Source: a virus. From it: a DNA stretch of 20,236 nucleotides. This document shows positions 4,583 through 20,055 of this stretch, piece after piece. The stretch covers positions 1 through 20,236 of IMG/VR virus record IMGVR_UViG_3300007722_000149; one strand, given 5' to 3'. The notes below the pieces were generated by a model. That model did no database searches. It worked only from the letters and a program-made list of their open reading frames with translations, and was not told the origin of the DNA. Both the position numbers and the translations under genes were made by a program. Every line of letters begins with the position of its first letter. The first letter of the stretch is position 1.

Positions 4583-5245
4583 GTGGCGATAAATTCTGAG
4601 ATTGGCGTGTACAACTTAGCGTTGAACGCAGTGGGCGAACGGGCCAATGTATCGTCACCAACTGAAAACTCGCGTCGGGCCGAGGTGTGTAGATTGTGGT
4701 ATGACCTCGTGAGAGATCAAGTCATGGAAGCTGCACCTTGGCCCGAGGCAACTACGCATATGCGACTTGCGCGGAAGGCTGAACAAACTACAGTTGCGTG
4801 GGTGCAGGGCGATCCCTCACCTGGGTATCAGTATTCTTTCGCGCTACCTGCGGATTGTCTCCGCCCACAATATTTGAAAGACTTCGCGCCGTTTGAGTTG
4901 ACTACCGAAGATGGCGTGAAGCTGTTGCAATGCAACACAGCCGAACCAATCCTGCGGTACACAGCCGCACAGGATAACGTGGCGCTATGGACAAATAACC
5001 TTCTAATGGCGATTGTCTACGGCCTCGCCGGACATATTGCCCAGCCCCTTAGTGGGAAAACCCGACTAACAGCAACGCTAGTAGACCGCGCTAATCAGCT
5101 CATTCTCGCCGCTCGCGTTAATTCCGCGAACCAGCCCAACCAGCACTATGAGCATATTCCCGACTGGATTGCTGCAAGAGGCTATCTAAACCAAACGCAG
5201 TCACAGTTCTTTTACCCGGTAGGGGGCCTCCTCAATGTCGAATGA
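4583..5245 (+). CDS. Tail tubular protein A (T7 gp11-like adaptor)
   Basis: The 220-residue product fits the gp11/tail tubular A family, the ring that docks under the portal and carries the nozzle and fibres. Typical features are the N-terminal IGVYNLALNAVGERANVSS segment, the VCRLWYDLVRDQVMEAAPWPEAT helix followed by the hydrophobic core, a GYQYSFALPADCLRP stretch near residues 85-99, and a late LAGHIAQPLSGKTRL helix. GTG 4583 is chosen because GGGAG (4570-4574) is eight bases away; TTG 4580 in the same frame is only five away and would add one residue. Its end overlaps the nozzle gene by 11 bases. Confidence 0.88.
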   Translation: MAINSEIGVYNLALNAVGERANVSSPTENSRRAEVCRLWYDLVRDQVMEAAPWPEATTHMRLARKAEQTTVAWVQGDPSPGYQYSFALPADCLRPQYLKDFAPFELTTEDGVKLLQCNTAEPILRYTAAQDNVALWTNNLLMAIVYGLAGHIAQPLSGKTRLTATLVDRANQLILAARVNSANQPNQHYEHIPDWIAARGYLNQTQSQFFYPVGGLLNVE

Positions 5246-7967
5246 TATTGCTAAGTACGCCTTTATAGCGGGGGAAATTTCCCCAACACTTTACGGACGT
5301 ACCGATCTCACAAAGTTCGATCTCGGCATGTCAGAGGCGACAAACTTTTTTGTTGATTATCGCGGCGGGCTTAGCACACGTCCCGGCTCACAGTTCATTG
5401 AGTTTGTAAAAAGCGATACGCTGGAGACACGGTACTTCCCCTTCAGCTTTTCTATCGAAGAGGAAGATACGCATATAATCCTTTTCGGGGATTACTATAT
5501 CCGCATCCTCCAAGAGGGCAATTATATTCTCGAAGCTGCGGTTAGTTGTACCGTATTAGGCGGGACTGTCACAGTCACCGCGCATGGGCTGACAGCGGGC
5601 CGCTGGATTAAGGTAGGCGGTATTAGCTATGCCGTGGCTGACGTAACCACGAATACGTTTAATATTTACACGATACCTGGGAATGAGGTTGCATCGTCTG
5701 TTAACTTCACAAGTTACCAAGCGGTGTATGAACTCGTATCGCCCTACGCTGCAGCCGATCTTTACGAGCTAAACTTCCAGCAGTATCGCGATGTGGTAAA
5801 GATAACTGGGGTGAACTTTCCGCCGTATGATTTGACGCGGCTGGCCGAAGCTTCTTGGACTCTAGCCATAGTAGAGATAAGCGCGTTTTCTCAAGGCCCA
5901 ACAATTACAGGAAGCTCTACCAGCACCGCAGGTAGTGCACAGGTTCTTTTTGCCGTTACCTCTATCTATGAAGACGGCAGTGAAAGCATCATGGGCAACC
6001 CCTTCCGGCTATCATCCATAGTCAACTACGCTGCCGTAGAGGGTTCAGTTAGCGTAAGCTGGGCCAGTGTTGCGGAAGCGGTTTCCTATAACGTATATCG
6101 CAGCGTTATTAGCGTTTCCGAAGTATTATCCCTCGGTAGTGAATTTGGTTATGTAGGTAAAACGCAGGGCACTAAATTTACTGACCCGAACATTGTGCCT
6201 GACTTCGGCAAAACCGGCCCAACAAACTACACCCCTTTCACCCCTGGCGCGATTACTACGGTACGAGTGACTGCGGGCGGAACTGGTTACTCAAGCGCGC
6301 CGACCGTTGCAGCTGCCGGTGGTGGTAGCAACTTTGCCGCTCGGGCTATTGTTGACGACTCAGGTAAGGTTGTCAATGTAATTATTGAGAACGGCGGGGA
6401 GGATTATGTCAATCCTACGATCTCCTTTTCAGGCGCTGGTAGTGGTGCTACAGCTACGGCAACTGCGCGGGCGCTTACCGGCATCTATCCTAATGTAAGC
6501 CTAATCTTCCAGCAACGGCAAATCTACGCGAGTTCCCTCGAAGACCCGATAACTATTTGGGGCAGTCAGATACGCCGGTTTAGTAATTTTAACACCTCCG
6601 AAATTCTAGTCGGCACTGACGGATTTCAGTTCACGCTTGACAGTAGCAGCGTCTCACCTATCCGACACCTTGTCGGGATGCGGGGCGGGATGCTCGCGAT
6701 GACTGCTGACCATATTTGGCTTATGAACGGTGGGGGCGCTAACGAGGCACTAACGGCCACAAATGCGCTTGCAGAAACGCAAACCTATACCGGCGTCAGC
6801 CGACTGCCGCCCATTCGCGTAGGGGCCTCTCTCCTCTACACGGAAGGCAAAGGCTTTGCCGTTCGCGAGTTACTCTACAATGAGTTTTCTCGCGTGTACA
6901 GCGGGCAGGATCGTAGCATCCTTTCCAGCCACCTATTTGGCAAGGGCAAAACCATTAAGGCCTGGGCGTTTCAAGAGTCGCCTTACAAGGTTGTGTGGTG
7001 TGTGCGGGACGATGGAAAGCTTCTTGCGTTCACTATAGTCTCTGAGGAAGATGTATTCGCGTGGACCCCTTGCGAAACTAAAGGGCGATATACTGACGTT
7101 ACCGTTGTGCGGGAAGGGGAGCAAGATCGCGTCTACCTCATGGCTGAACGGTTCATCAATAATCGCTGGACTAAGTTTATCGAGCGACTTGACCTTCGGC
7201 AATTCGTAAACACAGAAGATGCTTGGTGCGTTGACTGCGGGCTGGAGTATCCTCTTAGCTATCCTGCCGGGACTATCACAGTGTATAACGGGGACTATGC
7301 GACTATTACGGGCGGAAGTTTTCTCGGCACCGAAGATTGTGTTCTTCGTGCGGCTAATGGGCGCTGGCGCGTAACTTCTGCTACTGCAGGGCGCGCTGAA
7401 TTACTCCGCATAATTGAGCCTACAGAGTGGGTGCCGGAAACCGAAGACGCTTATACGTTTCCGATAACCACTGGTAATTGGTCTTTAACAAAACCTGTTT
7501 CGTCAGTGGGGGGATTGCAGCATCTTGAGGGGGAAACTGCTGCAATCCTCGCTGACGGAAGTGTTATACCTAATCAAGTTGTAACTGATGGAATGATAAC
7601 GCTTGAGGAACCGGCAAGCCGGATTATCATTGGCCTGTCGTATACTTGCCGCGCAAGAACGCTGCCGCTAATCGTTCCCGGCGAAAATATTGAGGCGCGG
7701 AGAAAGCGTATAGTAGCTGTCTCCATGCGGTTGAACAACAGTCGGGCGTTAAAGGTAGGCGACTCCTACGATAGTGTATATGAATTTCCAGCTCGATCTG
7801 ACGAACCCTGGGGCAATCCTGTTCGGCCACTTACCGGCCTCGCGCAGACGCCTATCGGAAGCACGTGGGATGAAGAGTCCTACACCTATTTTCTGCTCGA
7901 CGATCCTCTACCAGCCACACTGTTAAGTCTCGTGCAAACAATGGAGCTTGGCGATGACCCCGATTGA
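5235..7967 (+). CDS. Tail tubular protein B / nozzle (T7 gp12-like) with inserted beta domains
   Basis: The 910-residue product has the N-terminal signature of nozzle or stabilisation proteins: FIAGEISPTLYGRTDLTKF, a NFFVDYRGGLSTRPGSQF segment, and FSIEEEDTHIILFGDYYIRIL. These proteins close the tail after packaging and form the DNA exit channel. It is longer than T7 gp12 (794 residues). The extra length is partly an Fn3-like region (about 222-325, with YEDGSESIMGNPFRL and VSWASVAEAVSYNVYRS) and a two-copy GGxGY repeat (about 338-412). The beta-propeller-like body follows (RQIYASSLEDPITIWGS onward). ATG 5235 has AGGGGG (5221-5226) upstream. The last 14 bases overlap the next gene. Confidence 0.88.
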   Translation: MSNDIAKYAFIAGEISPTLYGRTDLTKFDLGMSEATNFFVDYRGGLSTRPGSQFIEFVKSDTLETRYFPFSFSIEEEDTHIILFGDYYIRILQEGNYILEAAVSCTVLGGTVTVTAHGLTAGRWIKVGGISYAVADVTTNTFNIYTIPGNEVASSVNFTSYQAVYELVSPYAAADLYELNFQQYRDVVKITGVNFPPYDLTRLAEASWTLAIVEISAFSQGPTITGSSTSTAGSAQVLFAVTSIYEDGSESIMGNPFRLSSIVNYAAVEGSVSVSWASVAEAVSYNVYRSVISVSEVLSLGSEFGYVGKTQGTKFTDPNIVPDFGKTGPTNYTPFTPGAITTVRVTAGGTGYSSAPTVAAAGGGSNFAARAIVDDSGKVVNVIIENGGEDYVNPTISFSGAGSGATATATARALTGIYPNVSLIFQQRQIYASSLEDPITIWGSQIRRFSNFNTSEILVGTDGFQFTLDSSSVSPIRHLVGMRGGMLAMTADHIWLMNGGGANEALTATNALAETQTYTGVSRLPPIRVGASLLYTEGKGFAVRELLYNEFSRVYSGQDRSILSSHLFGKGKTIKAWAFQESPYKVVWCVRDDGKLLAFTIVSEEDVFAWTPCETKGRYTDVTVVREGEQDRVYLMAERFINNRWTKFIERLDLRQFVNTEDAWCVDCGLEYPLSYPAGTITVYNGDYATITGGSFLGTEDCVLRAANGRWRVTSATAGRAELLRIIEPTEWVPETEDAYTFPITTGNWSLTKPVSSVGGLQHLEGETAAILADGSVIPNQVVTDGMITLEEPASRIIIGLSYTCRARTLPLIVPGENIEARRKRIVAVSMRLNNSRALKVGDSYDSVYEFPARSDEPWGNPVRPLTGLAQTPIGSTWDEESYTYFLLDDPLPATLLSLVQTMELGDDPD
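7943..7946 (+). promoter_or_regulatory. Ribosome binding site deciding the start at 7954
   Basis: GGAG is seven bases before ATG 7954 but only one base before the in-frame TTG 7948, so it supports ATG 7954. Confidence 0.55.
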
Positions 7968-8328: not shown

Positions 8329-8867
8329 TGGCATTTGCACCTCTCCTTCTCCCCGCTATTGGGGGATTTCTCACAAGTGCTAGTGGTATCGCGGCGGTAG
8401 CAACAGCTGGTATTGGCGCGGTTACAGCTATTTCACAGGGCAATTACCAAGCGGCTGTGGCGCGGAACAATGCAGATGCTGCGACAGCCCAAGGTAATCG
8501 CGAGTCGGCTGCGGCGCAGGCAAATGCTATGCGGTTATCGCAGGAAAATGCTGGCCGTGTTGGCGCGCTTACAGCATCGCAATCGGCGTCCGGGCTTGAC
8601 GTGGGTAGCCGCTCGTTCGGGCAGGCGCGGGCACTTGAAACTCGCATAGGTAATCTTGAGGTGCGGGATACTGCGCGGGCAGGAGCCGATGCAGCTAATG
8701 CAAATTTCCGGGAAGCGTCAAACTTTCGCGCAGAGGCCACCAACGCAAAACGACAAGGGATGCTTGGAGCGGCTGGTAGTGCGATTGGACTCGCCAGTAG
8801 TTTTGCGGGAAGTTCGCAGGGGAAGTCGTTGGTCGGTGGTAGTAAGCTTAAGAAGAGGTTCGGTTAA
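8328..8867 (+). CDS. Internal virion protein, T7 gp14-like
   Basis: The 179-residue product begins with a hydrophobic glycine/alanine stretch (about residues 5-35, LLLPAIGGFLTSASGIAAVATAGIG in two parts) and continues as a long alanine/asparagine/glutamine-rich helix (NNADAATAQGNRESAAAQ). The C-terminus is glycine/serine-rich and ends in basic KKRFG. This is the pattern of gp14-type ejected proteins, which form the outer-membrane part of the channel through which podovirus DNA passes. The start is coupled to the previous stop (TAATG, 8326-8330), and its own stop is coupled to the next start in the same manner, so it is probably made in step with the other internal proteins. Confidence 0.8.
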   Translation: MAFAPLLLPAIGGFLTSASGIAAVATAGIGAVTAISQGNYQAAVARNNADAATAQGNRESAAAQANAMRLSQENAGRVGALTASQSASGLDVGSRSFGQARALETRIGNLEVRDTARAGADAANANFREASNFRAEATNAKRQGMLGAAGSAIGLASSFAGSSQGKSLVGGSKLKKRFG

Positions 8868-11521
8868 TGGAAGTTCGTAGAAATACCAGAACCAGTGCAC
8901 CTGCAGGGCGCGCAACATTCACCCGCGCTTCGACGATTGACGTTACTCCGTTACAGCGGGGCATCCAATCTCTCGGCGATAACATTGACGCGGGCATAAA
9001 AGCTCACCAGCAGTTTGAGTTGCAGAAGCGGCTGTTGGAAGAAAACAATAAGATTAAAGCTGAATTTGAAGAACGTAGTCGTGCGCCTGACATGGACCCG
9101 TTTACATTTTCCCAGTCGATTGATGCTGACTATACAGATCGAGCGAATAGCGTGGCCGATGAATATCGTAAGCTTGGCTATGACGGGGAACTCGTTAATG
9201 ACTTCATGCTCGGCATGGGGAGAATACGGAACGGCGTAACGGATAACGCAACTGCGGTGCAGACGCAGGCCCTAGCAACTCGGGCGCTTAGTGATATTGG
9301 CAAAATTGCCGATGAAGGTTCTAGGGCTATCGTTAATGATGTTGATAGCTATGAGACAACCCTGGCGTTTTCCCTCGATACGGTTGACCTAAACCCAGCG
9401 CTTGGTGATGCGGAAAAGGTAATGCAGAAAGACGCGATACGCGAACGGTTCCGGCAGGCTGGCGGGGAAGTCTTTGGGCGTAGTCGGCCTGAAGATGTGT
9501 TTGCGCAACTTGATCCTAACGGGGTTTTTCGTAGTAATAGGGCTGTTGCGGCTGCCGGGACGACTGGAGTAGGCGGTACTGTTGCAGCTGAAGGGCAGCA
9601 AAAAGATGTTGGCGATGTACTTACTCAAGGTGGTCTAGCCTCTCACGTAGTCGCAGGTTTTCTCGGTAACTTTGACGTTGAAGGTGGGTATGGTGGCGCT
9701 CTTGGCGATGGCGGAAATGCCAGCGGTATCGCTCAATGGCGACATGAGCGCCGTGATAACTTCAAAAAACAGTTTGGCAAAGAGCCTCATCAGGCTACTC
9801 ACGCGGAACAAGCGCAGTTTGTACTTTGGGAAATGGAAAACCCTGCTGCGGCTGGTATGTCTGTTAAACAGCGGGATGCTATCCTTAATGCTGGTAGTGC
9901 CACAGAGGCTGCTGAGCTCATTGATAAGTATTATGAACGATCGAGTGGCGCTCATCGTGCGCGGCGTATTGAAGCTGCGGCTAAATATATTAACATAGGA
10001 CAGCAAGTTCCTCAAGCGGGTGACGTAACTGCCGTTGCCCTTCCTCCCAGCGATCCTGCGATTAGCAATCCTACTCCAGGCAATGGCGAAGTTGTACCTG
10101 AAGAAGCCCCTGTCGCTGCCGCAGAACTGCATCCAGTCCTCCGTGATCTTACGGGTGAAGAGCGCCTTCGGGTGTTAGGGATGGCGGATAAGGAACTTCA
10201 ACAGAAGACTGCGAATAGCAAAGCTGAAATGGAATTGCGGCTGCAGAATATTAAGGCGCAGATCGAAAGCAATGATGGCAACGTAACTATTCCAATGCCA
10301 ACGCTGGAGGAACTTACGCCGTTGTACGGTGAAGTCGCGGCTGGCCAGATCATGGCGGACGTCAATACGCTGCAGCAATCCGCAATCTTCCGGCAGGATT
10401 GGGCCGGGTCTAGCGTTGCCAGCATGGATGCGGAATTGGAAAAGCTACGCCCAGCGCAGGACGATCCTGCCCTTGCCGTTAAACTGCAGACGTATGAAAA
10501 CGCAAAAGCAGTGCGAAATGCTATCGTTGAAAAACGTATGGAAGACCCTGCAGCATACGCATTATCACAAAATTCTGCGCTTGCTAAAGCAATTGAAAGC
10601 GGAAATTCCCCCGCATACTACGCGCTGCAACGCGCTGAACAGACCCGCCTCGGCATCCCGAAAAGCCAACAGAACCCTTGGCCGCAGGAATACATTGATG
10701 AGCAAAAGGCGAAGTATGATACTCTTAGCACAGATCAACGCTTTGACTGGCAGATGCGCCATATCAAAGGTGCAACTCGTGATGAGTTTGGTAACTTCGC
10801 GCAGGCGTTTGAGGGCACGGATGCTTACGACGATATGTTGACGACAAGTTTCTTGTATACCACACGCAGCCAGAAAGAGGTTAACCGATTGTTGCCTATA
10901 ATTCTGCGAGGTGCGGCCATCATAAAGAACGATCCAGCGCGGCGTCCTCCGTCAGAAAAAATGGTCGTACAGTTTCAAAGCAATCTACTCGGCGGTGTGC
11001 GGAATACTAACCCTAACCTTAGCCGCTCGATCCGCAATGCAGCTGACGCAATCTATGTCGCACGAGGAGGTGACCCAATTGATCCCGACCCCAACTTGTA
11101 TACCGAAAGTTTACGCGAAGCTGTCGGCGGTAAGTTTAATAATTCTTCCACCAGCTGGGGAAACTACGGTAAGAACGGGGTGAAAGATTTGACAATATTT
11201 CCTCCCTTCGTAACTAAAAACCAATTTGATAATTGGCAAGCTGGTCTCACTACAAAGGGGCTGCAAACGCTTTCGCAGAATGGCGCACCTCGTCACGCTA
11301 CCGGCGAAGCAGTATCCGCTAGTGACGTAGTGGATGAAGGCGTCCTTGTTATGGTTGAGCCCAATGTTTATACTATAAAATTTAAGCAGTCGGGCGGTGT
11401 AACTGAGGGTGCGTATGGTAATGATGGACGGCCTGTGCGGCTTCGTATTACCGGCAAAGATATTATCAATGCGTCTAAACCACCAGCACCTACATTTACA
11501 CCAACCAGAAATGCGAAATAG
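8867..11521 (+). CDS. Large internal virion protein with phage tail lysozyme domain
   Basis: The 884-residue product is a helix-rich ejected core protein with an embedded peptidoglycan hydrolase. Residues about 248-375 match the phage tail lysozyme (Phage_lysozyme2-type) pattern: VVAGFLGNFDVEGGY, then GDGGNASGIAQWRHERRDNF, then QAQFVLWEMEN and a C-terminal DKYYERSSGAHRARR. Glu272 in NFDVEGGY is the probable catalytic acid. The N-terminal 240 residues are charged helices (QKRLLEENNKIKAEFEERS). The C-terminal 500 are helical, with a proline-rich linker near 385-415. The domain would open the cell wall for DNA entry. The start is coupled by TAATG with AGAGG upstream. T7 carries its wall-cutting domain in gp16, so the arrangement differs. 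Confidence 0.85.
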   Translation: MEVRRNTRTSAPAGRATFTRASTIDVTPLQRGIQSLGDNIDAGIKAHQQFELQKRLLEENNKIKAEFEERSRAPDMDPFTFSQSIDADYTDRANSVADEYRKLGYDGELVNDFMLGMGRIRNGVTDNATAVQTQALATRALSDIGKIADEGSRAIVNDVDSYETTLAFSLDTVDLNPALGDAEKVMQKDAIRERFRQAGGEVFGRSRPEDVFAQLDPNGVFRSNRAVAAAGTTGVGGTVAAEGQQKDVGDVLTQGGLASHVVAGFLGNFDVEGGYGGALGDGGNASGIAQWRHERRDNFKKQFGKEPHQATHAEQAQFVLWEMENPAAAGMSVKQRDAILNAGSATEAAELIDKYYERSSGAHRARRIEAAAKYINIGQQVPQAGDVTAVALPPSDPAISNPTPGNGEVVPEEAPVAAAELHPVLRDLTGEERLRVLGMADKELQQKTANSKAEMELRLQNIKAQIESNDGNVTIPMPTLEELTPLYGEVAAGQIMADVNTLQQSAIFRQDWAGSSVASMDAELEKLRPAQDDPALAVKLQTYENAKAVRNAIVEKRMEDPAAYALSQNSALAKAIESGNSPAYYALQRAEQTRLGIPKSQQNPWPQEYIDEQKAKYDTLSTDQRFDWQMRHIKGATRDEFGNFAQAFEGTDAYDDMLTTSFLYTTRSQKEVNRLLPIILRGAAIIKNDPARRPPSEKMVVQFQSNLLGGVRNTNPNLSRSIRNAADAIYVARGGDPIDPDPNLYTESLREAVGGKFNNSSTSWGNYGKNGVKDLTIFPPFVTKNQFDNWQAGLTTKGLQTLSQNGAPRHATGEAVSASDVVDEGVLVMVEPNVYTIKFKQSGGVTEGAYGNDGRPVRLRITGKDIINASKPPAPTFTPTRNAK

Positions 11522-11523
11522 TT

Positions 11524-13299
11524 ATGGGATTATTTGACTCAGACTTGACCCAAGAAATTATACCCTCTCGTGGTACGCCCAGCGGTTTCTTTGAGGGAAT
11601 TTCTCAAGGCTATAAACAACAGTATCGTGTTGACTCCCCATACTCCTTAGAGTTTGAAGTCACAGATGCGTGGCAGGATACCCTTACGGAATATGAAGCT
11701 ATAACCGGCGAGAAGCCTGCGTTCCGCCTTGACATGGCCGCGTTAAATAGTTACGCGAGGACTATCCAAGGTGAGGAAATTTCCGTGTTCCAGCGGGAGG
11801 CGTTTGGCGGGGGCATCCCGCAAGAACTTAAAACAAACATTGCAGCCTTTCAAGCGTTTAACGAAAAATTAAAAGCCAGCGGTAATGATAAGCTAAAATC
11901 CTTCGAGCAAGTGCTTGAGGAGGTTTTCGCTATGCGAGCGGAGGTTGAAAAAGAGTCGAGCATAAAGTCCGAGACGGGGGGAGTATCGGGCGCTATAGGT
12001 GAGTTTATAGGCGCTACTGCCGGAACATTAACTACACGTGATCCGCTGTCGCTAGGGACGTTAGGGGTAGGCGGGATATTCAAGACGGTGCTTGCTCGCG
12101 TTGCTACGACAGCCGCTATCTCTGGTGGCCTTACTGCGGTTACAGAACTTGGGTCGGTGCAGCCAGACAGGAAACTGTCTGGTCTTCCGGAACGTGATCC
12201 GTTTTTCGATATTGCCGTTGCCGCTGCCGCGGGTGGTATATTTGAAGGGGTAGGCACGCTTGTACAACGCTTGATCCGTAATCGGGCGGGTAGAGCCGAA
12301 GCGGCTGCGCCGGACATATCTGCGTTTCCCGCTGACTCACCAGACCCACGTATTCGAGGCGCTCGGCATATCTTTGAGATGGAAGATGTGGTCATTTCTA
12401 AATCGCCGTATGGCACTGGCCGTAAAGGACTAAAGCGTTTTACTGCGGAACTTGAAGAGGTGCAGGATATATTCGCGGGTAAGACTGATACCGCTATTGC
12501 GCGTGTGCTACCTCCGGTGCCGTATGAGCAGTTGAAGAAAGCCGCTGACTTTGATATTATCAGTGAGATAGAGCCAGTTATATACGCGAGGATGGAGGAG
12601 GCGCAGGTACGTTTGACTGAGGCGCAAACGCAATTGGATAATCTGGAGAATAACCCGCCGACTATTGAAGATGCGATTGACTCAATCGACCCTGATACCG
12701 GAGCGGTTGTGCGTTCGCTGTTAGATGATTTGGAAGCGCCGGGCCTGACCACACAACGGCGTGGTGAGATTGAACAGCGGTTAAATGTAATCACGGAGAC
12801 GCTGGACCAAGCTGCCATCGACAAACGGCTGAATGATATTAGCATTACACCGAAGAAAAAATTACAATTTCAACGTAAATCACTCCGAGCCGCAAACAAG
12901 AATTACAAAAAAGCGTATGCGGAAGTTGAAGCTGTCCGTGCGCGATTTGTGCGGGAACAGGAACAAATCGAGATTGTTCAACGGGCACGGGCGTCGGAAG
13001 ACTTGGCTACAATAATTGCCGAGGGCCGCTCGCCGGTGCAAATGGCTTCCGTAAGTGGCGAGGCATCTGTTGCTATCGCTAAGCGGCTTGAGGCGTTTGA
13101 TATTGAACTGGAGGCTAACACGCTCGTCGCCCGTTTTGATGAGGCTTCCGATACGGTTGACCTCGGCTTGGAAGAGCCGGTCAGTATGAGTATGTTGATT
13201 ATTGACGCGGATGGTAGGCAAGTTTCTGTGCGCGAAATGATGGAAGACCTTCGTGACGATGCCAACCTTGATGAAGCTATGAGGAGTTGTTTGCTATGA
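11524..13299 (+). CDS. Internal virion protein with hydrophobic insert and coiled coil
   Basis: The 591-residue product lies between two other large internal proteins. The first 140 residues are soluble and mixed. Residues about 150-250 are glycine/alanine-rich and hydrophobic in several segments (SGAIGEFIGATAGTLT, LGTLGVGGIFKTVLARVATT, DIAVAAAAGGIFEGVG), joined by an RDPFFD loop. This resembles the membrane-inserting segments of ejected core proteins. From about 350 it becomes a long coiled coil (RMEEAQVRLTEAQTQLDNLENN). There is no clear ribosome binding site before ATG 11524, two bases after the previous stop, so it probably relies on translational coupling. It is a plausible inner-membrane channel subunit by analogy with T7 gp15/gp16. 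The family is not identified more precisely. Confidence 0.7.
   Translation: MGLFDSDLTQEIIPSRGTPSGFFEGISQGYKQQYRVDSPYSLEFEVTDAWQDTLTEYEAITGEKPAFRLDMAALNSYARTIQGEEISVFQREAFGGGIPQELKTNIAAFQAFNEKLKASGNDKLKSFEQVLEEVFAMRAEVEKESSIKSETGGVSGAIGEFIGATAGTLTTRDPLSLGTLGVGGIFKTVLARVATTAAISGGLTAVTELGSVQPDRKLSGLPERDPFFDIAVAAAAGGIFEGVGTLVQRLIRNRAGRAEAAAPDISAFPADSPDPRIRGARHIFEMEDVVISKSPYGTGRKGLKRFTAELEEVQDIFAGKTDTAIARVLPPVPYEQLKKAADFDIISEIEPVIYARMEEAQVRLTEAQTQLDNLENNPPTIEDAIDSIDPDTGAVVRSLLDDLEAPGLTTQRRGEIEQRLNVITETLDQAAIDKRLNDISITPKKKLQFQRKSLRAANKNYKKAYAEVEAVRARFVREQEQIEIVQRARASEDLATIIAEGRSPVQMASVSGEASVAIAKRLEAFDIELEANTLVARFDEASDTVDLGLEEPVSMSMLIIDADGRQVSVREMMEDLRDDANLDEAMRSCLL
13281..13286 (+). promoter_or_regulatory. 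Ribosome binding site deciding the start at 13296
   Basis: GAGGAG ends nine bases before ATG 13296 and abuts the in-frame TTG 13287, which it therefore cannot serve. ATG 13296 also overlaps the preceding stop as ATGA. Confidence 0.7.
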
Positions 13300-15812: not shown

Positions 15813-17093
15813 ATGACAGTTGGTACTACGTTAAATGTCGCACAGCTGCTAACCGATGGGGCAGCAACAGATTTTCCTTACGCGTTTATCGTGTTTGAAA
15901 AAGAAGATTTACAGGTAGTGCTACGCGATCTTGACGGAGTGGTTGTTAAGACTTACGCGCAGAATGAGTTCAGCATATCCGGCCTTGGCGCAAATGCGGG
16001 TTCGATTAACATTGTACCTGCGCCGGTTACTGCGCATGAAGTGCTAATCATGCGGGAAGTTCCTGTGCTTCAACCTACCGATATTGTCAATCAGGGCGGG
16101 TTTTTCCCCGAGGTGATTGAGCGGCAGTTTGACGAAATCGTTATGCAGAACCAACAGGCGGATGAGAAACTTAGCCGCGCTATTGTAGCTGACCTTGGCG
16201 ATCCTGCGTATACGTTAGGCCGCCTTGATGCCGATGATGTCATTCAGTTCCGTGGCGGTAAATTAGAAGGACTGAGTTTAGCGGAATTTGCCGCGCCAGC
16301 AAATGCCGCAGCTGCAGTGGGCGAGGGTTATGCTGCAGCGTTAATAACATATACCTTTGGCTATATCGGCCTAGATGCAACAGTTCCCGCTGGCGTTGAT
16401 GAAGGAGAGGGCTTCGTCTACACGGTTGCCGGTCGAGTTTACGGCGCGCTTAATCTCGGCGGTTCGGCTGATGTTAAGTTTGAGATACTGACTAAGGCAC
16501 TTGCCGAGGCTGGCGGGGCGGGTTCTGGGACTGTTACTAGCGTTGCTCTAGGCGGGGGCTCTACGGGACTCACCTTTAGCGCGGCTATAACTACCAGTGG
16601 TACGATCACGGTAGGCGGAACCCTTGCAATCGCCCACGGCGGAACGGGCAGTGATACAGCCGAGGACGCAAGAACCGAGTTAAGCGCAGCCGCTAGTGGC
16701 GCTAACGTAGATATTACCAGCCTGAAAGAGACCACGACTATTACAGCGGGCGGTACTATTGCAGCGACCTCCCTGGGCTTTCGCGGCGTTCCTCCATCAG
16801 CGCAAGCAGTCGGTTCTGCAATAACGCTAGGACTTACCGACTCTGGCCGTGTAGTAGTTAATACCCTCGGTGGCTGGACTATCCCGGCAAACAGTTCTAT
16901 CGCGTTTCCTATCGGAACAGCAATAATTCTATATAACGACAGTGCCTCTACACAGACCGTAGCAATCACCACGGACACGCTGCGCAGAGCGGGCACTACT
17001 GATACTGGAACCCGAACGGTTGCCCTGCGCGGGATGGCTAGCCTTATGAAAGTGAAAACTACCGAGTGGCTTATAACGGGTAATATAACATGA
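15813..17093 (+). CDS. Tail fibre with T7 gp17-type N-terminal anchor
   Basis: The 426-residue product has the T7 tail-fibre N-terminal domain in residues 1-125: DFPYAFIVFEKEDLQVVL, then KTYAQNEFSISG, IMREVPVLQPTDIVNQGGFFPEVIE in two pieces, and DEIVMQNQQADEKLSRAI. This domain attaches fibres to the tail. Residues about 237-290 hold the widespread fibre repeat GTVTSVALGGGSTGLTFSA with ITTSGTITVGGTLAIAHGGTGS. The last 100 residues form a beta-rich end with no chaperone or enzymatic motif. The fibre is short compared with T7 gp17 (553 residues), suggesting that it is a platform to which another receptor-binding protein (see 17458) attaches. GGGA is seven bases before ATG 15813. The end overlaps the next gene as ATGA. 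Confidence 0.87.
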   Translation: MTVGTTLNVAQLLTDGAATDFPYAFIVFEKEDLQVVLRDLDGVVVKTYAQNEFSISGLGANAGSINIVPAPVTAHEVLIMREVPVLQPTDIVNQGGFFPEVIERQFDEIVMQNQQADEKLSRAIVADLGDPAYTLGRLDADDVIQFRGGKLEGLSLAEFAAPANAAAAVGEGYAAALITYTFGYIGLDATVPAGVDEGEGFVYTVAGRVYGALNLGGSADVKFEILTKALAEAGGAGSGTVTSVALGGGSTGLTFSAAITTSGTITVGGTLAIAHGGTGSDTAEDARTELSAAASGANVDITSLKETTTITAGGTIAATSLGFRGVPPSAQAVGSAITLGLTDSGRVVVNTLGGWTIPANSSIAFPIGTAIILYNDSASTQTVAITTDTLRRAGTTDTGTRTVALRGMASLMKVKTTEWLITGNIT

Positions 17094-17446
17094 GCGGTGT
17101 GCTTGCTCTCCTATCTACAGCTGCTGGTAATCCGTTCAGCGTAGCCGCGAGTAACGTTTCTAAAACTGATACTGGTTTCGCTGCATCAGGAACAGTTACT
17201 ACAAACACATCGCCCGGTACAACACCAACGGGTGGTACAGCTCCCTACATTTATGCTTGGACAAAGTTCAGTGGCTCTTCGGTCCCGGTGGTTAGCGATG
17301 CTACTGCACAAAATCCAACTTGGTCGGGGACTGTCAACAGTGAAGTCGCAGAAGTTGCGGTGTGGCGAGTTACGGTAACTGACGACGCAGGCGCTGCCGC
17401 GACTGCGAACATTACTGTTTCGCTTAACTGGTTTAATTTGGCTTAA
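17090..17446 (+). CDS. Small Ig-like (PKD-type) tail-associated protein
   Basis: The 118-residue product is one beta-sandwich domain with features of phage Ig-like/PKD modules: GTVTTNTSPGTTPTGGTAPY, the YAWTKFSG core tryptophan segment, and VAVWRVTVTDDAGAAATANIT near the end. Such domains occur fused to tail proteins and as free small proteins, and they are thought to aid weak binding to cell-surface carbohydrates or to act as spacers. The start overlaps the fibre stop (ATGA, 17090-17093), so translation is coupled. The stop is 11 bases before the spike gene. It could be an adaptor between fibre and spike, but this is only inference from gene order. Confidence 0.7.
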   Translation: MSGVLALLSTAAGNPFSVAASNVSKTDTGFAASGTVTTNTSPGTTPTGGTAPYIYAWTKFSGSSVPVVSDATAQNPTWSGTVNSEVAEVAVWRVTVTDDAGAAATANITVSLNWFNLA

Positions 17447-17457
17447 AGGGATTTAAT

Positions 17458-20055
17458 ATGGTTGTGCCACTGTTTGCTTCAAAATTGCGTAACGATATTT
17501 TGACCTCATTGAGGCCGTTTACCGATGCTCCTATATATACAGCGGTTAGTGGATTTCCGGCTGCGAGCAATAGTGAAACATGGGCAGTTATCCTCTCAGG
17601 TGCTGAAGAAGGTATCTACTTGGATCAAGGAACGTGGACACGTCGGGGCGATACGCAAGCGTTTCGGGCAGAGACCGCTGCTGAAGCGGCTGAAGCCGCT
17701 AAAGATGCAGCCCTTGCTGGCCTGACCGCAGCCGATGTTTACACAGACACCACAATCGCAGCCGCCAAAGTCACTGGCCTTGCCGCTGTAGCGGAAGGGG
17801 AAACCTTTTACGCAACCGGCGATGATGTTGACTATGTTGGCCTGTATAAAGACCTGGCCGGCGTTGCGACGGAGATTGTGCGGATTGCCAAGCCATCCGC
17901 GCTTGACGATGCCGTAGCGCTAGCATCTTCTGTGGCCGCACGGGCCACGGTGGGTGCGGCCACAGTGGCGAACGCTGGCACGGGCACTGCCGCTAGCTTC
18001 TCTTACATGAACCAAGAGGCGTCACCGATTGCGGGTCGGCTCACTGAGGTAACTTTATACACGGCAAGCAACGTGGAAATGTCGGTTTTTGTTGCTACCG
18101 ATGATGGCAGCAACTTTGCAACACGCGTCCAGACAGTTAGGGTTTACGCGATAGCGGGGGTGAATACCTATAAGGTTGATCTGCCTATTGCGGTTGGCCA
18201 AATTGTCGGTTTTCATGGGCCGAGCACTAAGCAGACGGGCACGGGCAAGGCTGCCTACTATAAGTCTGGATTGCTTGGGCTGACAACCGAAGCGGTAACA
18301 GCGGCGGCAGGCTATGGCTTGCAGTTTTCCGCGAAGATTGTTTCTGAAATCGGCGACAGCTACACAATAGCCAGCGGTCTAGGCAATAGCGAGAGGATTG
18401 GGCGGGCAGTTGTATCAGCATCGGGCGGGACGGTTGGGGCGGGGTTCTTTATTGCAAATTATAACCCTGCCACCCTAAGCGGATTTGTCACTGAGGTGGA
18501 TGTCTCGGTTGTGAACGAAACAGCCGCAGCAAAACTGGCGGTTGTCAGCATGAACGCAGACGGCACGGTAAACCTTGTCGAAAGCCGCACAGTTAGCTTA
18601 TCGCCCGGAATAAACCGTATTCGCCCGCAAGGCTTGGCGATTGCGGCTGGGCAATATGTTGGCGTATTGGCCTCGGGTAGCCTTGTGCAAAACACGACAA
18701 CCGGCGAGCCTGTTTTTTATATTACAGGGCTTCCCGGAACCAGCACATCAAAGGCCATCCTTAACAATTACGGCATTGAAATAGGCGTTACGATCGAAGA
18801 GGCCGACCGCGCAGCAATCTCGCAATCCGGCTCTTCTGTAGCTAGCGGAATTGTGGCTGACGGCACCACGGACGCAACTACGGCAATTAAGCGCTTACAG
18901 CCAAACGGGGCCTATCTCCCAAGAGGCACCTACGCTGCTACATCCTTGCGCCATGAGGGGTTAAACCTTAGCGGCCCCGGCGACGTGCTTCTGAACGGGC
19001 GAAAGTTCTTCTTGCCGGCAGAACCTTCCACCGCATCACTGCTCCGGCGGTTTCGCTCGGAAGTCGCTCGCCAGATTGGCGACTTGTCTGGGCTTGCGTT
19101 TATTGGCGACAGCATCACGTTGGGGCAAGCTGGCACTAGTGACTGGCTTTACACAATGCCTTATCTTGTTTCTGGATTTGCCAATTCTACGAGTTCGCCG
19201 AACGACACGCCTATAATGAACAGCTTCCAAATTTCACTTTCCGCGATGGGCATTACTATGCCCGCGACCCCTGCTTATGGAGGCACAGGGCCGCAGGGGA
19301 TGGCGCTGACCCTTGCTGATGGTGAGACTTTGACGCTTGACGCTGGCAACTTCCGGATTGTCGATGTCTTCTATGATCGGGCAGTCTCTGCCGGTTCGCT
19401 TGCCTTCGCTTTTAATGGCGCTGCCGCATATAAAACCGTTAGCTGTGCCGGTTCGGTCTTAACTGACGAGACTACGTACACCGGCGCGGGAACGGGCCAA
19501 ACCACATCCGGCGTTTACACAATCACCGCATCGGGCGGGCCAGTGATTATAACTGGCCTAATTAGATTGGGCGAGTTGGTTGACACTTTCCGGGGTCGCC
19601 TGCCTGTCTATAACTTTGGCCGCAATTCGCAGGCAATTACCGGCCTGACTGCAACGCGCATTGCGTCGATGAAGAAGCAAATGGCTGTTTTCGGGGGCAG
19701 CGCGCCGGGGGCGGTTTTGATCTATGGTGAGAACGATCAAATCAGCACTTTGCCCGCCACAATTTACACCAACTTCACCGCCAAGATTGACGAACTAGTT
19801 ACCGCTGGTTTCAAGTCAATATGGGGGTGCGGTATTCTCAAACCCGCATCGTCTACATACACATACGCGGCGGGATGCAGCTATCGGGGAGCGAACGGCG
19901 CAGTGCGGGCCGCGTTTGAAGATAAGGGTGTGCCATTTATCAAACTGGACGCGGTGGAGTTTAGCGAGCGCGGGCTTTCGCCAGACGGGGTGCATCCAAA
20001 TGATGCCGGGACAGCATTGATGGCGCAGTTAATCATCGAGGATATGGCGGAATGA
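17458..20055 (+). CDS. Tail spike with tandem beta domains and C-terminal SGNH hydrolase
   Basis: The 865-residue product is probably the receptor-binding depolymerase or deacetylase. Residues 1-145 form an anchor-like start (YTAVSGFPAAS; an alanine-rich helix at about 70-90). Two related beta domains follow, about 160-295 and 313-448; both contain TEV, a V-x(2)-GQ segment (AVGQIVGFHG, AAGQYVGVLA) and an end of the form YG-[LI]-[QE]. Residues 464-495 (VADGTTDATTAIKRL, GAYLPRGTYAA) resemble the start of a pectate-lyase-type beta helix. The SGNH domain runs 545-865: FIGDSITLG (Ser552), GRNS (721-724), YGEND (Asn759) and SPDGVHPN (Asp843, His846), a full catalytic set for ester cleavage. AAAGGGA (17445-17451) precedes ATG 17458. 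Codon use looks GC-richer than in the internal genes, suggesting exchange of this module. Confidence 0.85.
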   Translation: MVVPLFASKLRNDILTSLRPFTDAPIYTAVSGFPAASNSETWAVILSGAEEGIYLDQGTWTRRGDTQAFRAETAAEAAEAAKDAALAGLTAADVYTDTTIAAAKVTGLAAVAEGETFYATGDDVDYVGLYKDLAGVATEIVRIAKPSALDDAVALASSVAARATVGAATVANAGTGTAASFSYMNQEASPIAGRLTEVTLYTASNVEMSVFVATDDGSNFATRVQTVRVYAIAGVNTYKVDLPIAVGQIVGFHGPSTKQTGTGKAAYYKSGLLGLTTEAVTAAAGYGLQFSAKIVSEIGDSYTIASGLGNSERIGRAVVSASGGTVGAGFFIANYNPATLSGFVTEVDVSVVNETAAAKLAVVSMNADGTVNLVESRTVSLSPGINRIRPQGLAIAAGQYVGVLASGSLVQNTTTGEPVFYITGLPGTSTSKAILNNYGIEIGVTIEEADRAAISQSGSSVASGIVADGTTDATTAIKRLQPNGAYLPRGTYAATSLRHEGLNLSGPGDVLLNGRKFFLPAEPSTASLLRRFRSEVARQIGDLSGLAFIGDSITLGQAGTSDWLYTMPYLVSGFANSTSSPNDTPIMNSFQISLSAMGITMPATPAYGGTGPQGMALTLADGETLTLDAGNFRIVDVFYDRAVSAGSLAFAFNGAAAYKTVSCAGSVLTDETTYTGAGTGQTTSGVYTITASGGPVIITGLIRLGELVDTFRGRLPVYNFGRNSQAITGLTATRIASMKKQMAVFGGSAPGAVLIYGENDQISTLPATIYTNFTAKIDELVTAGFKSIWGCGILKPASSTYTYAAGCSYRGANGAVRAAFEDKGVPFIKLDAVEFSERGLSPDGVHPNDAGTALMAQLIIEDMAE

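Follow-up and report, generated by a model that had tools for sequence, protein, structure and literature searches.

Phage tailspikes with an SGNH-type esterase domain are best described for gp63.1 of Escherichia phage G7C, a tailspike of solved structure (PDB 4QNL) with proven O-acetyl esterase activity. This protein deacetylates the O-antigen (PMC13123978, PMC13082707), removing the O3-acetyl group of the host lipopolysaccharide without cutting it (PMC13123978). The G7C-like spikes of Moo19 and B2 were likewise active as esterases in assays (PMC11654681), as were two SGNH fibres encoded by Klebsiella prophages (PMC13123978), and gp41 of Acinetobacter phage Aristophanes, a podovirus tailspike with an SGNH-type C-terminal half, is a proven capsule deacetylase that acts on the K26 capsule (PMC8471582). 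In gp63.1, a 66-residue entry module (residues 179-244), catalogued in Pfam as PF21562 ("G7C, Tail fiber protein, domain 3"), leads directly into the SGNH domain. Here we describe a spike of an uncultivated podovirus that is probably a new, divergent member of this esterase-tailspike type, with a domain order already known from gp63.1.

The DNA analyzed in this work (hereafter the window) is a stretch of 20,236 bases from a podovirus of the BcepC6B/BPP-1 type. Its major capsid protein is 62% identical to that of BcepC6B and 56% identical to that of BPP-1, and the GP7 (PF20911) and Head-tail_con (PF12236) families are both present, with the gene order of these two phages. A close relative (L002), with 94-96% DNA identity to the window, stops before the spike gene, and two more distant relatives, G002 and G004 (92% and 90% identity in the major capsid protein), both extend through it. 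Elsewhere in the window, an internal virion protein (8867-11521) contains a Phage_lysozyme2 domain at residues 245-376 (E=1.5e-17); within the ejection machinery, this domain probably serves to cut peptidoglycan. The two large genes for internal virion proteins share a stop/start overlap at 13287-13299, where the ATG of the second gene (13296) still lies within the first. G002 has this overlap too, and it is an ordinary sign of coupled translation. In a tail protein (5235-7967), residues 335-413 form an 80-residue glycine-rich stretch with matches to families of baseplate wedge and head-closure proteins; it appears to be an inserted module.

The spike gene (17458-20055, plus strand) is open from ATG to stop and encodes 865 residues. 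The reading frame, the four catalytic residues (Ser552, Asn759, Asp843 and His846) and the motifs GTTDATTAIK (residue 469) and LPRGTY (residue 487) were all found where the original prediction had placed them. Table 1 lists the features of the spike and of the two genes preceding it.

Table 1. Coordinates of the tail operon genes and of the spike segments in the window.
Feature	Position	Strand	Remarks
Adaptor with T7 gp17-like N-terminal anchor	15813..17093	+	64-72% identical in G002/G004, whose spikes differ
Small PKD-like (Ig-fold) protein between adaptor and spike	17090..17446	+	45-64% identical in G002/G004
Spike N-terminal peptide (MVVPLFASKLRNDI)	17458..17499	+	Sole part common to the G002/G004 spikes
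Beta domain, copy 1 (residues 171-294)	17968..18339	+	Duplicate comparison and shuffles
Beta domain, copy 2 (residues 321-446)	18418..18795	+	Duplicate comparison and shuffles; low-confidence all-beta model
Pectate-lyase-type entry (residues 464-515)	18847..19002	+	Position equivalent to G7C gp63.1 domain 3 (PF21562)
SGNH hydrolase domain (residues 541-865)	19078..20052	+	Ser552, Asn759, Asp843, His846; block II NFGRNSQ 719-725
Insert in the SGNH domain, after block I and before block II (about residues 605-711)	19270..19590	+	Common to the Vibrio phage 1.211.A SGNH protein

The window, G002 and G004 share the same gene order, in which the adaptor is followed by the PKD-like protein and then by the spike. 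DNA similarity between the window and G002 ends at 17477, seven codons into the spike gene, and the common N-terminal peptide, about 14 residues with PLFA(S/T)(K/R)L(R/K)N, probably acts as a docking element. Of the anchor initially proposed for this protein, the sister spikes share only this short part. The G002 spike (L082:4554-6338), which occupies the same slot and starts with the same peptide, has a conventional beta-helix body above the PF12708 cut-off and no SGNH domain, and the G004 spike (L084:3057-6452, minus strand) comprises 1132 residues that, past the short common N-terminus, match no Pfam family at E<=1. Three differing bodies behind a common peptide form the pattern of an exchangeable receptor-binding gene, and the spike is, as judged from sequence, a swapped receptor-binding cassette, with three unrelated bodies occupying one slot.

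The catalytic blocks of the SGNH family can be followed through the C-terminal domain of the spike. Block I (GDSIT, 550-554), containing Ser552, is kept in a homologue from Vibrio phage 1.211.A, while block III (GEND, 757-760), with Asn759, and block V (DGVHP from 843), with Asp843 and His846, align to solved SGNH enzymes, the latter over DGVH (843-846). Block II, placed by hand comparison with the gp63.1 family, aligns with NCSVSGK in G7C gp63.1 and has Ser724 at the usual position of the oxyanion-hole glycine, with Gly721 three residues earlier. The claim that all catalytic residues are present was hence slightly overstated, since it is true of the Ser, Asn, Asp and His residues only. When searched alone, the domain passes the PF00657 cut-off (24.3 bits against 23.6; E=4e-5) and scores below that of PF13472 (27.6 bits against 32.9; E=5e-6). 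A profile built from the spike domain and its Vibrio relative matches the solved SGNH esterases 9hi5, 4hf7 and 3hp4, with E-values from 3e-4 to 0.03; blocks III and V align in these matches, and block I aligns weakly and in the best matches only. A single-sequence AF2 model of residues 455-865 had low confidence (pLDDT 31.8). No protein search recovered a close homologue whose substrate is known. Viral contigs searched with the whole protein and with its parts yielded no relative, and one scan of genome contigs returned two short block V matches only. Among 29 records of related phages, none gave an SGNH match; many of these records are fragmentary and might not include the spike gene.

The domain inserted between blocks I and II spans about 105 residues and is beta-rich by sequence. 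Both the insert and the catalytic blocks are shared with an SGNH protein of Vibrio phage 1.211.A (NVP1211A_15, AUR95711), which is 26% identical to the spike over residues 609-863, is annotated as SGNH and keeps the IGDSIT and DxxHPND motifs. The Vibrio protein differs from the spike in its N-terminus, in having no beta duplication and in an extra C-terminal laminin-G-like domain. Vibrio phage 1.211.A carries two adjacent genes annotated as SGNH hydrolases (L086:3975-7538), and only the first of them is related to the spike. The inserted domain also seemed to resemble Aristophanes gp41, but we rejected this likeness for want of a collinear profile match. Unlike the spike, gp41 is fused to its own T7-like anchor and has no Pfam entry module.

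Upstream of the entry, the two beta domains are related, as originally proposed. A single comparison of the copies yields 27% identity over 122 columns (E=1e-5), and their local score of 91 was reached by none of 2000 shuffles (mean 34.4, standard deviation 6.2). A two-sequence model of the duplicate reached a pLDDT of 52, and a Foldseek search with this low-confidence model returned nothing significant (best E 0.008), its top rows including a few carbohydrate-binding and C1q-like beta-sandwiches that are likewise not significant. Given the confidence of the model and the outcome of this search, a sugar-binding role for the beta domains is only a guess.

The pectate-lyase-type entry that separates the beta domains from the SGNH domain is about 50 residues long, rather than about 30 as first estimated, and its likeness to pectate lyases is weak when taken alone. 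It aligns with PF12708 at E=0.029 in a library scan and at E=0.0026, below the curated cut-off, in a one-genome search. The alignment covers only positions 7-48 of the 213 in PF12708, and the spike has no multi-turn beta-helix body. PF21562 itself returned no match to the spike in the Pfam search. A query containing the gp63.1 module and SGNH domain matched 19 phage records, 17 of which cover at least 80% of the query; these gp63.1-type records come from Escherichia, Aeromonas and Pectobacterium phages and reach down to about 33% identity. Among gp63.1-like genes, the spike gene of Pectobacterium phage CB4 (L110:1-1222) is divided between two frames that overlap, perhaps through a frameshift or an error in sequencing. 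The gp63.1-family profile aligns to the spike over the entry and on through block I with an hhalign score of 40.0 (shuffles: mean 15.0, maximum 24.1), and the spike thus has a short entry directly before its SGNH domain, as gp63.1 does. Restricted to its SGNH part, the profile reaches 34.7 across blocks III to V, and the entry alone gives a marginal 19.2 (shuffle maximum 18.2). The beta-helix spike of G002 scores 17.5 and does not match. An HMMER profile of the gp63.1 entry and block I could not distinguish the spike from shuffles, so we regard the kinship between its entry and the gp63.1 entry modules as supported but remote.

The distance from the entry to the catalytic serine is also comparable, at 95 residues in gp63.1 and 88 in the spike. 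The domain order of the spike had been considered unusual, a view that does not hold: the same short entry stands directly before the SGNH domain in gp63.1 and in its relatives from Escherichia, Aeromonas and Pectobacterium phages. The two proteins differ at their ends, gp63.1 having a Tail_spike_N head that the spike lacks and two carbohydrate-binding domains after the SGNH domain (PF21988, PF22245), neither of which has a Pfam match in the spike. The spike chain ends 19 residues past His846, and these C-terminal domains are therefore missing. Conversely, the tandem beta domains before the entry and the domain inside the SGNH domain are found in the spike and not in gp63.1. What appears particular to the spike is the combination of an insert between blocks I and II, an upstream tandem beta pair and no C-terminal carbohydrate-binding modules. 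With PF21988 and PF22245 absent, the spike would work like gp63.1 while standing outside its exact family.

The best reading of these data, and a likely one, is that put forward in the original prediction, a spike whose SGNH domain is an esterase or deacetylase of surface glycans; its motifs and genomic context are observed, and its activity is predicted. The Pfam SGNH matches, the profile matches to solved esterases, the Vibrio homologue, the slot in the tail operon and the gp63.1 profile support an esterase tailspike, and the serine at block II, the weak likeness of the entry, the missing C-terminal carbohydrate-binding domains and the want of a close homologue with a known substrate weigh against it. 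The residue at the block II position contributes its backbone NH, so Ser724 is not fatal to SGNH activity. That same substitution, together with tandem beta domains that could bind sugar, is what would favor a spike that only adheres, its SGNH domain having lost or lowered its activity to become a lectin-like receptor binder. The retention of the Ser, Asn, Asp and His residues and the presence of the same blocks in the related Vibrio phage protein argue against this, and we deem it unlikely. An active esterase could also act on something other than polysaccharide O-acetyl groups, such as a lipid, a thioester or another acyl ester: the family matches include a lipase, acetylxylan esterases and a thioesterase, and sequence alone thus does not fix the substrate. 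In the papers considered here, however, those SGNH domains of phage spikes whose natural substrates have been tested act on O-acetylated surface polysaccharides (PMC13123978, PMC8471582, PMC9569702), which makes a different substrate a rather improbable choice here.

The idea that the hydrolase replaced a depolymerase body stands at the level of the gene slot, where the syntenic G002 has a full beta-helix spike. Taken further, it would make the entry the stump of a beta-helix depolymerase whose catalytic body was recently replaced by recombination within the gene, as the similar start of the G002 spike in the same slot and the weak PF12708 match to the entry might suggest. Yet the swap junction with G002 lies near codon 7, outside any helix, the same short entry is conserved before the SGNH domain across the gp63.1 family, and the G002 spike fails to match the profile of that family. 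We consider such a stump very doubtful; the corresponding entry of gp63.1 is a recognized Pfam domain, which makes a structural module the better interpretation, rather than the remnant of a lost helix.

We thus regard it as probable that the gene encodes the tailspike of a BcepC6B/BPP-1-like podovirus, made up of a docking peptide, a beta stalk or sugar-binding part, a neck and a C-terminal SGNH O-acetyl esterase. This proposal builds on the observed motifs, duplication, tail-operon position, body-swapping slot and collinear gp63.1-family match; esterase activity and an acetyl substrate are put forward by analogy. The N-terminal peptide would dock the spike, presumably a trimer, on the adaptor, the PKD-like protein or both, the tandem beta domains would serve as the stalk or bind sugar, and the short pectate-lyase-type module would form the neck. 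As in gp63.1, the SGNH esterase may strip O-acetyl groups from the host O-antigen or capsule at adsorption, leaving the chain uncut.

In BcepC6B, a single protein, gp18, appears on visual inspection to begin like the anchor and to contain a region resembling pectate lyase. A tentative scenario, which we consider possible but not favored, is that the BcepC6B-like lineage has divided what is usually a one-piece tail fibre among a fixed adaptor, a small PKD-like connector and an exchangeable spike attached by only its roughly 14 N-terminal residues, with whole bodies (beta-helix, SGNH esterase and the unclassified 1132-residue form) exchanged at one peptide junction, and that the spike represents a subfamily with a sugar-binding domain inside the enzyme rather than after it.

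The main interest of this locus is that three phages can be compared side by side, giving a clear case in which spike bodies are exchanged behind a peptide of 14 residues. In this phage group, the comparison suggests, entire spike bodies can be swapped at a very short junction. The divergent SGNH spike of an uncultivated BcepC6B-like phage also adds to the growing evidence that deacetylation, beside chain cutting, is a common phage route through surface polysaccharides.
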